A stretch of DNA of 32,909 nt from Bacteroidales bacterium (lineage in GTDB: Bacteria; Bacteroidota; Bacteroidia; Bacteroidales; 4572-128). Shown piece after piece: positions 8,536-32,909 of this stretch. Each line of letters opens with the position of its first letter. The stretch's first letter is position 1. The notes beneath the pieces are model-generated. The model saw only the letters and a list, made by a program, of their open reading frames with translations, ran no database searches and was not told the origin of the DNA. The position numbers and the translations under genes were made by a program. Location of the stretch: positions 1 to 32,909 of the forward strand of contig JAOZVH010000007.1 of assembly GCA_029938235.1 (NCBI GenBank), read 5' to 3'.

Positions 8536-8560
8536 AATTTAATAAATTCTATTTTTTTAT

Positions 8561-8955
8561 AAAATTTCGGCAGTTTTGTGAGAAATTTTTTTTAATAAAT
8601 TATTAAAATTTTAGCGTTTTTTAGAAAAAATTTTTTTTAATAAAATATTAAAATTTTAGCGTTTTTTGGAAGAATTTTTTTTTTAATAAATTATTAAAAT
8701 TTTGCCGTTTTTTGGAAAAAGTTTTTTTTTAATAAATTATTAAAATTTTGCCGTTTTTTGGAAAAAATTTTTTAATAAAATATTAAAATTTCGACGGTTT
8801 TTGAAGAAATTTTTTTTTAATAAATTATTAAAATTTTAGCGTTTTTTGGAAAAAAATTTTTTTTAATAAATTATTAAAATTTTGCCGTTTTTTGGAAAAA
8901 GTTTTTTTAATAAAATATTAAAATTTTGGCAGTTTTTATTAAAAAAATTTTTTTT
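8561..8955 (-). repeat. A/T repeat array, nine units of about 45 bp with a 135-bp higher order
   Basis: Units beginning aaaattt start at 8561, 8605, 8650, 8696, 8742, 8785, 8830, 8876 and 8920. Each has a variable core (ggcag, agcg, agcg, gccg, gccg, gacgg, agcg, gccg, ggcag), then ttttttggaaaaa, a T tract and a linker. The linker alternates between taataaattatt and taataaaatatt in the order A B A A B A A B. The B linker therefore recurs every third unit, and 8650, 8785 and 8920 are exactly 135 bases apart. The array lies between the minus-strand flippase gene (ends 9045) and the DUF3352 gene (starts 8296). The remaining 8956-9044 is another degenerate unit with tttggacgaatttt. Confidence 0.85.
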
Positions 8956-9044
8956 ATTTTGAAATTAAAAAACATTTAAATTTTGGACGAATTTTGATTT
9001 TTTTTTCAAATTTAAAATCATAAAAAATTGAATTTTTTCAAAAT

Positions 9045-12452: not shown

Positions 12453-12671
12453 TATGGACGTTTTTTTTTTTATAATTTAAAATCATTAAAATTTTGGTGT
12501 TTTTGGAAAAAATTTTTTTTTTAATAATTTAAAATCATTAAAATTTTGGCGTTTTTGGAAAAAATTTTTTTTTTAATAATTTAAAATCATTAAAATTTTG
12601 GCGTTTTTGGAAAAAATTTTTTTTTAATAATTAAAAATCATTAAAATTTTGACGTTTTTTGAAAAAATTTT
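12453..12671 (-). repeat. A/T repeat array with 52-bp period
   Basis: Four nearly identical units begin with aatcattaaaattttg at 12481, 12533, 12585 and 12636 (periods 52, 52, 51). They carry cores gtg, gcg, gcg and acg, then tttttggaaaaaatttttt and ttaataatttaa. The array lies in the divergent region between tsaD and guaA, so it is not merely a 3'-end element. Its last unit is interrupted by the terminal-repeat element at 12672, and a further unit resumes at 12904. Confidence 0.85.
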
Positions 12672-19904: not shown

Positions 19905-20340
19905 TAAAAAATTTTACGTTTTTGGAAAAAAAATTAATTCAAAATAAAAATTTTTTTTCAAAAAAACGTCCAAAATTTTAATATTTTTTATTTTGAGATT
20001 AAAAAAATTTTTTCAAAAAATGCCCAAAATTTCAATGTTTTTTAATCTCAAAATTAAAAAATTTTTTCAAAAAATCGCCCAAAATTTTAATATTTTTTAA
20101 TTTCAAAATAAAAAAAATTTTTTTCAAAAAACGTCAAAATTTTAATATTTTTTAATTTCAAAATAAAAATTTTTTTTAAAAAATCGTAAAAATTTTAATA
20201 TTTTTAATTTCAAAATAAAAAAAATTTTTTTTAAAAAACGTCCAAAATTTCAATATTTTTAAAAAACAACATTTGGTAGAAACAATGTTAAAAAACTTTT
20301 TTTCAAAAATCGTCCAAAATTTTAATATTTATTAAAAAAT
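19905..20340 (+). repeat. A/T repeat array with 55-bp period
   Basis: About seven units have their cores at 19967, 20021, 20076, 20131, 20184, 20239 and 20311. The first six are 53 to 55 bases apart. The last step is 72 because of an inserted stretch, aacatttggtagaaacaatg (with tt), which itself has ends aacatt and aatgtt. Core variants are cgtcc, tgccc, cgccc, cgtca, cgtaa, cgtcc and cgtcc. Linkers are atttcaaaataaaa or attttgagattaaaa. It fills most of the gap between the lipoprotein start (19788) and the DUF486 stop (20477). The stretch 19789-19904 is A/T-rich with no other feature. Confidence 0.85.
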
Positions 20341-28366: not shown

Positions 28367-28391
28367 ATTTATATTTTTATTAATAATAAAA

Positions 28392-28660
28392 ATTGCAAAA
28401 AAAACGTCATTTTTGGAAAAATTTTTTTATTAAAAAATTGCAAAAAAAACGTCATTTTTGGAAAAAATTTTTTTTAATGAAAAATTGCAAAAAAAACGTC
28501 ATTTTTGGAAAAAATTTTTTTTAATGAAAAATTGCAAAAAAAACGTCATTTTTGGAAAAAATTTTTTATTAAAAAATTGCAAAAAAAACGTCATTTTTGG
28601 AAAAATTTTTTTATTAAAAAATTGCAAAAAAAACGTCATTTTTGGAAAAAATTTTTTTAT
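28392..28660 (-). repeat. A/T repeat array, six units of about 46 bp
   Basis: Units begin attgcaaaaaaaacgtcatt at 28392, 28437, 28484, 28531, 28576 and 28621 (periods 45, 47, 47, 45, 45) and continue tttggaaaaa and a T tract. Five cores and six gcaaaaaaaacgtc blocks are identical, so the array is young or homogenised. The stop codon of the OmpA-family gene (28657-28659) lies inside the last unit. It forms the region between that gene and feoB. Plus-strand frames read as KNCKKNVIFGKNF repeats and are not genes. Confidence 0.9.
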
Positions 28661-30723
28661 AAAATTTTATATTCCACTCTTCTATTTAATTGACGACCTT
28701 CTTTAGTATTATTATCGGCAATTGCTTGCTTATAAGCATAACCTTTAAACTCTAAACGACCTTTTGAAATTCCATTTTTTATTAAATAATTAACAACTGA
28801 TTTTGCTCGGTCATTTGATAATTTTTCGTTATAAGAAAGTGAACCAACATTATCAGTATGTCCAGAAATTTCTATTCTAATTTTTGGATGATCATTTAAA
28901 ACTTTTAAAAGACGATTTAATTCAGTTTTCGAAGCATCGCGAAGCGAAGATTTCGCAGTGTCAAAAAATACATTTCTAAGAATAATTTTCACCCCTTTTT
29001 CTAACTTTTTTAAACCAATATTTTTTACAATTTCTTGATAATTAGAAGTTTCTGGAATATCAAAATTTTCTGAATGGAATAAATAATTTTCTGATTTTAT
29101 TGCAATTCCATAATTTTTTCCCGAAGGCAAAGAAATTAAATATTTTCCAGTTTTGCTGTTAGATATGAAATTTGCAATTACTTCATTTTTATCATTATCA
29201 ACTATTTCTATAGTTGCTCCGATAGGAATTTCTGTTTTTTCGTCAAAAACTATCCCTTTTAAAATTGTTAATCTTGCAGTTTGAATTTCTATTTTCTGCT
29301 CTATTATTGTTTCCGGAAGCGATTTTTCTAAACACGCAAGTAAATTATCTTCGCTGCTTTGCAAAAGTGGTTTTTCTGGTCCGAGAAAAGTTATAATATA
29401 AATATCCTGTCCACCAAAACCATCTTTTTTCTCCGAAGAATAATATGCTTTTTTTCCATTTGCCGCCATAACCATAAAAATATCATCGCCAGTTGTATTA
29501 ATGGGATAACCAAGATTTTCAGGTTTAGACCATTTTCCATCTTTACCTTTTACAGATTTAAAAATATCAAAACCTCCCATAGATGTATGTCCAGTTGAGC
29601 TAAAATAAATTGTTCTTCCATCTGGATGCAGAAAAACACTTCTCTCATCATATTTTGTATTTATCACATTACCAATGTTTTGAATGTTTTTCCATTTACC
29701 TTTTTCGTTTATCGTACTTTTAAAAATATCATGTTTGCCAAAATTATTTTCTTCATTATTACTAACAAAAAATAAATTTTTTCCGTCCGGAGAAAAAGAA
29801 ATATATTCTTCATGAGCCTTAGAATTTATGCCTTTTAAAGCTTTAGGTTTACTCCATTTTTCACCTTCCATTCGACAAAAATAAAGATCACCTCCTCTTT
29901 TCAAACCGTCAAAAATAAATAAACCCTGTCCGTCATTTTGAATTCCAACTGTTGCATTATTTTCATCATTATTTAATGGTTTTCCAGCATTTACAGATTT
30001 TTGCCAAACACCATTCAAATTATGAGAAATATAAATATCTTCATAAAAACGTCCGTCAGAAGCAATTTGACCACCCTTAGTGTCCGCTCGTCTGGAAGTG
30101 AAAAATAAAATACTTTCATCAGCAGAAATAAATGGACAATAATCATCAAACTTAGAATTTACATTTTCACCAATATTGTCAATAAAAACACGAACTGGAT
30201 TTTTTAAAAATTTTTTACCATTAGAACATTCAAAAATTTTTTTTTCTAAAATTTCCACATTTTTTTTCAAATTTTTTTCACTTAGAGAATTTTTATAAGA
30301 TTTGTATTTTTCTATTGCTCTATCAAACTCATAATTAAAATGATACGCCTGAGCCATCAAAAATAAAATATCCTCAGCAACTTCTGTATTTTTTTCATAA
30401 GACTTTTCCAAAAATTTTATACTTTTTATTTTTTCATTAGATTGCAAATAACAAGCACCTATTTTATAAGATAATTCTGCAGTATGAGAATTATAATTAT
30501 TTGCTTTCAAATAATGTTTCAAAGCTAAAACATAAGCCGCTTTATTTCCCAAAGAAAAATAATATTCTCCATCTTCTATATCTTGCCATGCTTTTTTAAA
30601 AGCTTTTTTATCTGACTTATCCTTAATTTCTTTTTTGAAAAATTTTTTTTTAATGATAATATGTTCTTGCGAAAGAATTACATTAGGAAATAATAAGAAT
30701 AAAATAAATATTTTTAATTTCAT
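28657..30723 (-). CDS. OmpA-family envelope protein with TPR, PD40 and Ig-like/CarboxypepD_reg domains
   Basis: The 688-residue product has a signal peptide (MKLKIFILFLLFPNVILSQ). TPR-like helices (about 35-165) contain KAAYVLALKHYLKANNYNSH. About 190-440 is a PD40/WD40-like propeller with repeats such as YCPFISADESILFFTSRRAD, YISFSPDGKNLFFVSNNEEN, SVFLHPDGRTIYFSSTGHTS and MVMAANGKKAYYSSEK. A carboxypeptidase-regulatory-like domain (about 480-565) follows. The C-terminal OmpA domain (about 575-688) holds the peptidoglycan-binding GHTDNVGS, LSNDRAKSVVNYL and RQLNRRVEYKIL. Such proteins anchor outer-membrane or secretion complexes to peptidoglycan; some relatives belong to gliding/type IX secretion systems, but no such genes are nearby. 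A -7-like box lies upstream. Confidence 0.9.
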   Translation of the reverse strand: MKLKIFILFLLFPNVILSQEHIIIKKKFFKKEIKDKSDKKAFKKAWQDIEDGEYYFSLGNKAAYVLALKHYLKANNYNSHTAELSYKIGACYLQSNEKIKSIKFLEKSYEKNTEVAEDILFLMAQAYHFNYEFDRAIEKYKSYKNSLSEKNLKKNVEILEKKIFECSNGKKFLKNPVRVFIDNIGENVNSKFDDYCPFISADESILFFTSRRADTKGGQIASDGRFYEDIYISHNLNGVWQKSVNAGKPLNNDENNATVGIQNDGQGLFIFDGLKRGGDLYFCRMEGEKWSKPKALKGINSKAHEEYISFSPDGKNLFFVSNNEENNFGKHDIFKSTINEKGKWKNIQNIGNVINTKYDERSVFLHPDGRTIYFSSTGHTSMGGFDIFKSVKGKDGKWSKPENLGYPINTTGDDIFMVMAANGKKAYYSSEKKDGFGGQDIYIITFLGPEKPLLQSSEDNLLACLEKSLPETIIEQKIEIQTARLTILKGIVFDEKTEIPIGATIEIVDNDKNEVIANFISNSKTGKYLISLPSGKNYGIAIKSENYLFHSENFDIPETSNYQEIVKNIGLKKLEKGVKIILRNVFFDTAKSSLRDASKTELNRLLKVLNDHPKIRIEISGHTDNVGSLSYNEKLSNDRAKSVVNYLIKNGISKGRLEFKGYAYKQAIADNNTKEGRQLNRRVEYKIL

Positions 30724-30854: not shown

Positions 30855-32648
30855 ATGAAAATTTCCCTTCTGTTAAAATCTTTGAAATTTAAAATGATAG
30901 CATATTTTTTAATTATTCCAATAATGGTATTTTTTCTTTATATTGCGAATACTTTTTGGATAGCTTCACAACAATTGGAAAAAGAAGCAAAATATTCTAT
31001 GGAAGGAAAAGAAATTTATTCAAGGAATTCTATTTTTTTATATAAAAAGAGATTTCAGGAAAAATCCATTGCTTATGTCAGAGATGCAAAATTATTTTAT
31101 CTGTTAAAATTTTTTATGAAATATCCACTGATAGAAGTTTTAAAAGAAGATAAAAAGAAAAATAATTTAAAAGATTTCATTATTTATAAAAATGATAAGG
31201 ATAGTTTTTTTATTTCTGCTGATAATGACACAACTCAAAATTACAAATTAGAATATATTAAAATTTTAAAAAATAAAGATGAATATACTTATTTACAAAA
31301 ACTTAATGGTAAAATCGTTATCGTAAGTATTGTACGAATAGAAGATAAAAATAATAAATATCTTTCTCACGCAATTATTACTAAGGAATTAGACATAACA
31401 GATTTTTTTGTAAATTCTGTACTTTTATCAAAAAATAAAATTCAGTCTGTTTCCCAAAAAGCAAGCGATTTGGAAAATTTTATTAAAGAAAAAAAGAATA
31501 CAATCAATTTTACAGAAAATTTACAAGCGATAGATCATTTTTATATAAATTCAATTTTTATAAAAGATAAAGATGATAAATTAATTGGGAAATTAGTTTT
31601 CGGTGAAAATTTTTATAAGCGTTATATTTATAATTTAAAACAAATTTTATATTTAATTCCTGTTTTTATTTTTTTACTCGGAGCATTAATATTTGTAGGT
31701 TATTATCTTGGAAGTGATATTGCAAATCCTATTATAGAAATGTCAAAAATTTCGCAAAATATTTCTCTGGGTAAAATAAAAATTTTTCCCTACAAAAAAA
31801 CCAAAAAAATAAGAAATGATGAAATTGGAATTTTATATAAGAATTTCAAAATTATGGTTGAGAGTTTTTTTAAAACTCAGAGAGATTTAAGAAAACTTCA
31901 TAATAATTTGGAAAATGAAATTAAAAAAGCAATAAAAGAAATTAGAGAAAAGGACCACATGTTGATTAAACAGTCAAAACAAGCGGCTATGGGCGAAATG
32001 ATAGGAAATATTGCTCACCAATGGCGACAACCTTTAAATGCAATAGGAATTATTATTCAAAATATAGAAGACGCTTATGAATTTGAAGAATTAGATGAAA
32101 AATATCTCGAGAAACAAGTGAAAAAAACTATGGAACTTATAGAATATATGTCTCAAACAATAGATGATTTTAGGAATTTTTTTAAAACAGACAAAGAAGA
32201 AAAAGAATTTTCTCTGGAAAAAATTATAAAAAATACTGTGCATCTTCTTGAAAGTAGTTTTGAAAGTTTACAAATAGAAATAATATTGGATATAAAAAAA
32301 GATGTAATTATAAAAGGTTTTCCAAATGAATATTCACAAGTTTTATTGAATATTTTAAGTAATGCAAAAGATGCAATCGCACCAGATAAAAACAAAAATA
32401 AATATGTAAAAATTAAATTACAAAAAGATAAAACAGGAAAATCAATATTAAAAATTTTTAATACTGGAAGACCAATCAGAAAAAATATTCTTGATAAAAT
32501 ATTTGACCCATATTTTACAACTAAACACGAAAGCGTTGGTACAGGGATAGGACTTTATATGTCAAAAACTATAATTGATAAAAATATGAAAGGAAATTTA
32601 TATGCAAATAATGTAAAAAATGGTGTAGAATTTACCATAGAAATTTAA
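30855..32648 (+). CDS. Orphan sensor histidine kinase with HAMP domain (HQWRQP type)
   Basis: The 597-residue membrane kinase has a first membrane helix at about 13-35, a periplasmic sensor region of about 220 residues and a second helix near 262-285. A HAMP domain (SDIANPIIEMSKISQNISLG) and a coiled coil (about 335-375) follow. The dimerisation box is GEMIGNIAHQWRQPLNAIGI with phospho-acceptor His388. The ATPase domain has N-box QVLLNILSNAKDAI, the G1 box (KIFNTGRPIR in place of DNGxGI), F box FDPYFTTK and G2 box GTGIGLYMSKTII. Autophosphorylation is expected. No response regulator lies in the window. HQWRQP-type kinases are especially common in Campylobacterota and other Proteobacteria-like groups, so acquisition by transfer is possible. 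The G1-box Asp is replaced by Asn-Thr-Gly text, which should be checked. Confidence 0.9.
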   Translation: MKISLLLKSLKFKMIAYFLIIPIMVFFLYIANTFWIASQQLEKEAKYSMEGKEIYSRNSIFLYKKRFQEKSIAYVRDAKLFYLLKFFMKYPLIEVLKEDKKKNNLKDFIIYKNDKDSFFISADNDTTQNYKLEYIKILKNKDEYTYLQKLNGKIVIVSIVRIEDKNNKYLSHAIITKELDITDFFVNSVLLSKNKIQSVSQKASDLENFIKEKKNTINFTENLQAIDHFYINSIFIKDKDDKLIGKLVFGENFYKRYIYNLKQILYLIPVFIFLLGALIFVGYYLGSDIANPIIEMSKISQNISLGKIKIFPYKKTKKIRNDEIGILYKNFKIMVESFFKTQRDLRKLHNNLENEIKKAIKEIREKDHMLIKQSKQAAMGEMIGNIAHQWRQPLNAIGIIIQNIEDAYEFEELDEKYLEKQVKKTMELIEYMSQTIDDFRNFFKTDKEEKEFSLEKIIKNTVHLLESSFESLQIEIILDIKKDVIIKGFPNEYSQVLLNILSNAKDAIAPDKNKNKYVKIKLQKDKTGKSILKIFNTGRPIRKNILDKIFDPYFTTKHESVGTGIGLYMSKTIIDKNMKGNLYANNVKNGVEFTIEI

Positions 32649-32657
32649 ACTTTAATT

Positions 32658-32909
32658 GAAAATTAAAAAAAAATGTCATTTTGGGAGAAATTTTTTTGAA
32701 ATAAATTTGAAAAAAAATGCCATTTTTTGAGAAAAATTTTTTTTTTGAAATAAAAATTAAAAAAATTGCCGTTTTTGGAGAAAAATTTTTTTTGAAATAA
32801 AAATTAAAAAAATTGCCGTTTTTGGAGAAAAATTTATTATTTGAAATAAAAATTAAAAAAATTGCCGTTTTTGGAGAAAAATTTTTTTTTGAAATAAAAA
32901 TTAAAAAAA
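32658..32909 (-). repeat. A/T repeat array running off the window end
   Basis: Five units have cores tgtc, tgcc, tgccg, tgccg and tgccg. Each continues ttttggagaaaaatttttt and then gaaataaaaattaaaaaaat. The last three units are nearly identical and start at 32765, 32812 and 32861 (periods 47 and 49). The array follows the kinase stop (32648) and is still repeating at the last base. Confidence 0.85.

Follow-up and report, generated by a model that had tools for sequence, protein, structure and literature searches.

An HQWRQP-class membrane sensor histidine kinase with an Asn-type G1 box and candidate unlinked hybrid partners in a Bacteroidales bacterium

Histidine kinases of the AtoS, ZraS and FixL group have a DxGxG sequence in the G1 box. 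VanS belongs to a kinase class other than the HQWRQP class that is considered here. Among solved kinases, ThkA (TM1359) of Thermotoga maritima has been determined both in an ADP-Mg complex and together with TrrA, its regulator (PDB codes: 3a0r, 3a0t). A paper on VanS describes both deviations of the G1 box, at the Asp and at the second Gly, as rare, though with precedent (PMC10017428). According to the same paper, the Asn of ThkA retains the hydrogen bond to adenine, the second Gly apparently makes no contact with the nucleotide, and the ATP affinity of VanS is low millimolar. Another kinase with the Asp-to-Asn change (BA2291-like) is reported, as cited there, to prefer GTP.

The window analysed here, a contig of 32,909 nucleotides, ends shortly after a gene that a sequence-only reading had described as an orphan HQWRQP-type kinase with an unusual G1 box in a Bacteroidota-like host. 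That reading raised cross-phylum transfer and an altered ATP-binding box as possibilities, and proposed a phylogeny of the kinase core, a search for an unlinked cognate regulator and structural modelling of the ATP site. The host is indeed a member of the Bacteroidota, and GEMIGNIAHQWRQPLNAIGI (HQWRQPLN) around the phosphoacceptor His388 (32016-32018) and the G1 text KIFNTGRPIR, within LKIFNTGRPIRK, are present as it gave them. Alignments show the flanks AAMGEMIGNIA and TIDDFRNFFK of the HQWRQP class on either side of the motif. The HATPase_c domain, with its N, F and G2 boxes, is matched at E 5.8e-14 (52.9 bits; cut-off 26.4), and HisKA at E 1.2e-5 with 25.7 bits, slightly below its cut-off of 26.9. 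In the structure model His388 lies in the DHp helix. These are the features of a membrane sensor histidine kinase, with NTGRPI in place of the usual, though not universal, DxGxG (Table 1). The model also has an N-terminal helix at residues 2-49. The sensor region has no Pfam match and no homologue beyond its own genus among the fetched loci, and its pLDDT, mostly below 50, is too poor for fold assignment. The linker behind the second membrane helix has no Pfam match to HAMP.

Table 1. Features of the kinase locus, intergenic arrays of the window and candidate partner receivers
Feature	Position	Strand	Basis or remark
Sensor histidine kinase gene, 597 aa	30855-32648	+	ORF and domain matches; dN/dS 0.10 against congener
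First predicted membrane helix, about residues 12-36	30888-30962	+	Hydrophobic stretch in sequence; boundaries approximate
Extracytoplasmic sensor region, about 225 aa	30963-31637	+	Between two predicted membrane helices
Second predicted membrane helix, about residues 262-285	31638-31709	+	Sequence; model helix 251-284
Putative HAMP-like linker and coiled coil	31710-31943	+	Model helix 290-304, long helix 321-409
Dimerisation/phosphoacceptor (DHp) domain with HQWRQP	31944-32190	+	HisKA match
N-box NILSNA, residue 499	32349-32366	+	Intact, standard
G1 box NTGRPI, residues 536-541	32460-32477	+	Asn536 replaces Asp, Pro540 replaces Gly
F-box FDPYF, residue 550	32502-32516	+	Intact, standard
G2 box GTGIGL, residue 562	32538-32555	+	Intact, standard
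AT-rich tandem array, unit about 49 bp, contig end	32659-32909	.	
Intergenic AT-rich tandem arrays	8560-8956, 12461-12671, 19934-20262, 28388-28664, 32659-32909		
Candidate receiver, N-terminal in 655-aa hybrid	G000:C300		REC-PAS-HisKA-HATPase-REC
Candidate receiver, N-terminal in 1243-aa hybrid	G000:C198		REC-PAS-PAS-GAF-HisKA-HATPase-REC

We suggest that the gene probably encodes a functional transmembrane sensor kinase of the HQWRQP class, with a ThkA-type G1 box, that relays to an unlinked hybrid receiver. Because dN/dS is 0.10 against the ortholog of the sister species (G001, 'Bacteroidetes bacterium 4572_128', contig NBLL01000138.1), the gene is under selection. The FNTGRP letters are identical in the two copies. 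The copy in G001 has a 53-bp frame-breaking deletion after HQWRQPLNA. Since dN/dS is 0.10 on either side of it, and similar short breaks occur in a neighbour gene of the kinase and in the C300-type hybrid of G001, we rejected a pseudogene reading of this copy; the deletion is probably an assembly error, and a recent real deletion is less favoured. Short frame-breaking deletions of 53, 30 and 25 bp were noted in the G001 MAG (L023 in G001:C100; L298 in G001:C127), with one further in a hybrid kinase, all in otherwise conserved genes, and they too are probably errors of assembly.

The G1 change in the window kinase is double, from Asp to Asn and from the second Gly to Pro. When the box was parsed in 127 HQWRQP kinases from all fetched loci, 116 had the D-x-G-x-G form, 11 had N-x-G-x-nonG, and none had a mixture. 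This complete coupling of the two positions is a small pattern within the present sample. When the G1 columns were left out and 123 cores were placed on a tree, at least six changes between the forms are required; a tree of 96 rows requires four. The named Asn forms among the 11 belong to Bacteroidales and Cloacimonadota, and several directly precede receiver genes (L096, L108). In the window genome, none of the other histidine kinases with parsable boxes has the Asn form. Modelling of its CA domain, with pLDDT above 90 over most of the length, gave a structure that fits the ADP- and Mg-bound CA domain of ThkA (3a0t) at a TM-score of 0.89 and 1.6 Å. ThkA is the nearest solved structure by sequence, and its VWNSGPPI aligns with the G1 box of the window kinase.

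Because the variant recurs among HQWRQP kinases and is also seen in solved ones, DxGxG is not a defining requirement. Nucleotide binding by the window kinase is expected, given the recurrence of the Asn form, the fit to ThkA and the findings on VanS. We also weighed a degenerate or pseudo-kinase, in which the changed G1 box would mean loss of ATP binding. The departure from DxGxG and the frame break in the congener would agree with this, but the N-, F- and G2-boxes are intact, dN/dS stays at 0.10 on both sides of the break, and similar short deletions affect other G001 genes, as assembly error would give. Moreover, the same G1 form is found in 10 other kinases, several of them adjoining receivers, and ThkA binds ADP with an Asn-type box. 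We therefore regard a pseudo-kinase as highly improbable, and the earlier reading gave the G1 text too much weight: the 'altered' G1 of the HQWRQP class is a recurring conserved form, also seen in ThkA and VanS, and not decay, which is relevant to kinase annotation based on DxGxG. A bolder proposal is that N-x-G-x-nonG is a discrete alternative nucleotide site, that it evolved repeatedly within the HQWRQP class through joint change of the two positions, and that it alters nucleotide use. We think this quite unlikely. If true, it could mean the use of GTP, or an ATP affinity low enough to read the ATP level. A kinase outside the HQWRQP class (L005 in G015) has an Asn-type G1, NSGPAI, and this suggests that the coupled change may extend beyond the class. 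In another locus (L108, 1731-7472), two tandem HQWRQP kinases, one with an Asp-type and one with an Asn-type G1, are followed by two receiver genes, and they represent a natural pair for comparing the effect of the G1 difference.

In relatives, a receiver gene usually lies directly after the HQWRQP kinase. Within the window there is no regulator gene upstream of the kinase, where a divergent PD40/OmpA gene is found, and the earlier statement that no regulator is adjacent holds for this side. Downstream, the contig ends at 32909, 261 nt past the kinase stop, within a tandem array. AT-rich tandem arrays, whose repeat units measure about 45-55 bp, occupy intergenic regions of the window, most of them with a core like CGTTTTTGGAAAAAATTTTTTT. 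The search for an unlinked cognate regulator, based on a profile census of the genome in which 33 receivers were analysed, gave two candidates. A profile of HQWRQP-adjacent receivers gave these 150 and 147 bits, whereas no other receiver exceeded 93 bits; for all 42 HQWRQP-adjacent receivers, the best match in the window genome is one of the same two. Both belong to hybrid kinases (C300 and C198) on contigs other than that of the window.

The partner-subclass receiver is present in 13/13 kinase-bearing genomes of the order versus 44/380 without a detected kinase (Fisher 3e-12, with kinship ignored). Co-occurrence is perfect in 41 relatives and weaker in the 393 genomes, where those 44 have the receiver alone. 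Since the C300 and C198 receivers match the adjacent-receiver subclass and this subclass co-occurs with the kinase, unlinked partners are likely in the genus of the window. With two HQWRQP kinases in the genome, the window copy and a paralogue on C282, and two receivers, either kinase may serve either receiver. The paralogue (L021, 2103-4271) has a normal G1 box, DNAGGI, and an N-terminal repeat region that looks TPR-like by eye; it is flanked by genes that their sequences suggest to be adenylate-kinase-like and porin-like. Thus an apparently orphan kinase can be given a testable pairing with two unlinked hybrid receivers.

The contig end leaves room for an active kinase of this class with its cognate regulator directly downstream, as the window stops in a repeat 261 nt after the stop codon, and in the order the other 11 genomes with the kinase each have a receiver no more than 2.6 kb away from it on one contig (402 bp or less in nine). 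A third receiver could be missing from the assembly, which is about 92% complete. However, both receivers of the right subclass in this genome are on other contigs, and in G001 no kinase accompanies the C300-type hybrid, whose upstream neighbour is a divergent gene that looks formiminotransferase-like from its sequence. We consider a downstream regulator unlikely.

The class is very common in Campylobacterota, as had been stated from the sequence: its core profile is matched in 60/61 genomes, mostly strongly, and many have 5-20 or more matches. It is rare in the order of the window, with a kinase in 13/393 sampled genomes in a search that scored at most seven candidates per genome. A phylum-wide search with the HQWRQP DNA pattern matched 15/396 genomes, and the only true kinase was that of the window genome; the other matches were rejected as wrong frames or short unrelated ORFs. 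The core phylogeny placed no donor. In trees of 96, 92 and 87 rows the window kinase has no well supported neighbour. Acquisition from Campylobacterota would concern origin only and is compatible with the function that we favour. In its favour are the abundance of the class there and its patchy presence here; AU tests of a forced clade of the window kinase and Campylobacterota do not reject this grouping, nor do they favour it (p 0.19, 0.74 and 0.48). Against it, core identity to the window kinase is 56-58% in Armatimonadota, Cloacimonadota, Bacteroidales and Nitrospira, the best values (57-58%) being in the first three, versus about 51% in Campylobacterota. The gene is ordinary in composition (GC 22.5%; window genes 21-32%), and both species of the genus share it with the same neighbours, so any acquisition was not recent. 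A plasmid search found distant kinases only, the best at 44% on Arcobacter-type plasmids. Transfer from Campylobacterota is, in our judgement, very unlikely, and the cross-phylum transfer raised earlier gained no ground for this donor.

Returning to a functional kinase with unlinked partners, we infer its activity, nucleotide, partner and direction of signalling as follows, whereas its domains and motifs, the selection on it, the recurrent Asn G1 and the co-occurring receiver subclass are observed. The periplasmic sensor would control the autophosphorylation of His388 by the CA domain, which may hold the nucleotide via Asn536 instead of Asp. The phosphoryl group would then pass to one of the receivers in the subclass that partners HQWRQP kinases, the most likely target being the N-terminal receiver of the C300 or C198 hybrid kinase, and that hybrid would feed a phosphorelay. 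We count against this reading the choice between two kinases and two receivers in the genome, a regulator that may lie beyond the contig end, the 44 receiver-bearing genomes without a detected kinase, the deletion in G001 and the weak ATP binding of VanS.

Compared with known systems, the window kinase looks like an ordinary membrane sensor kinase, and its G1 variant is a known one. What is unusual is that G1 behaves as a two-state box and that the likely hybrid partners are unlinked, though neither goes beyond known biology. The closest relatives in form are Asn-type HQWRQP kinases of Bacteroidales and Cloacimonadota (L096, L108, L097, L099, G530, G559), which share the HQWRQPLN box and N-x-G-x-nonG, with core identity up to about 57%. 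They differ in their sensor regions, and several lie beside receiver genes whereas the window kinase, as far as assembled, does not. The HisKA and HATPase_c core of the AtoS, ZraS and FixL group (NCBIfam; PDB code: 9jfj) aligns with the window kinase, though the latter is far under the equivalog cut-offs (AtoS, 108/646 bits). VanS types A and C, which work in resistance signalling, likewise have Asn for Asp and lack the second Gly; the millimolar ATP affinity is a measurement on VanS. ThkA has the same CA fold and an Asn-type G1, NSGPPI compared with NTGRPI, though it lacks HQWRQP, has AHEIRNP as its H-box and shares only about 32% identity in the CA domain.
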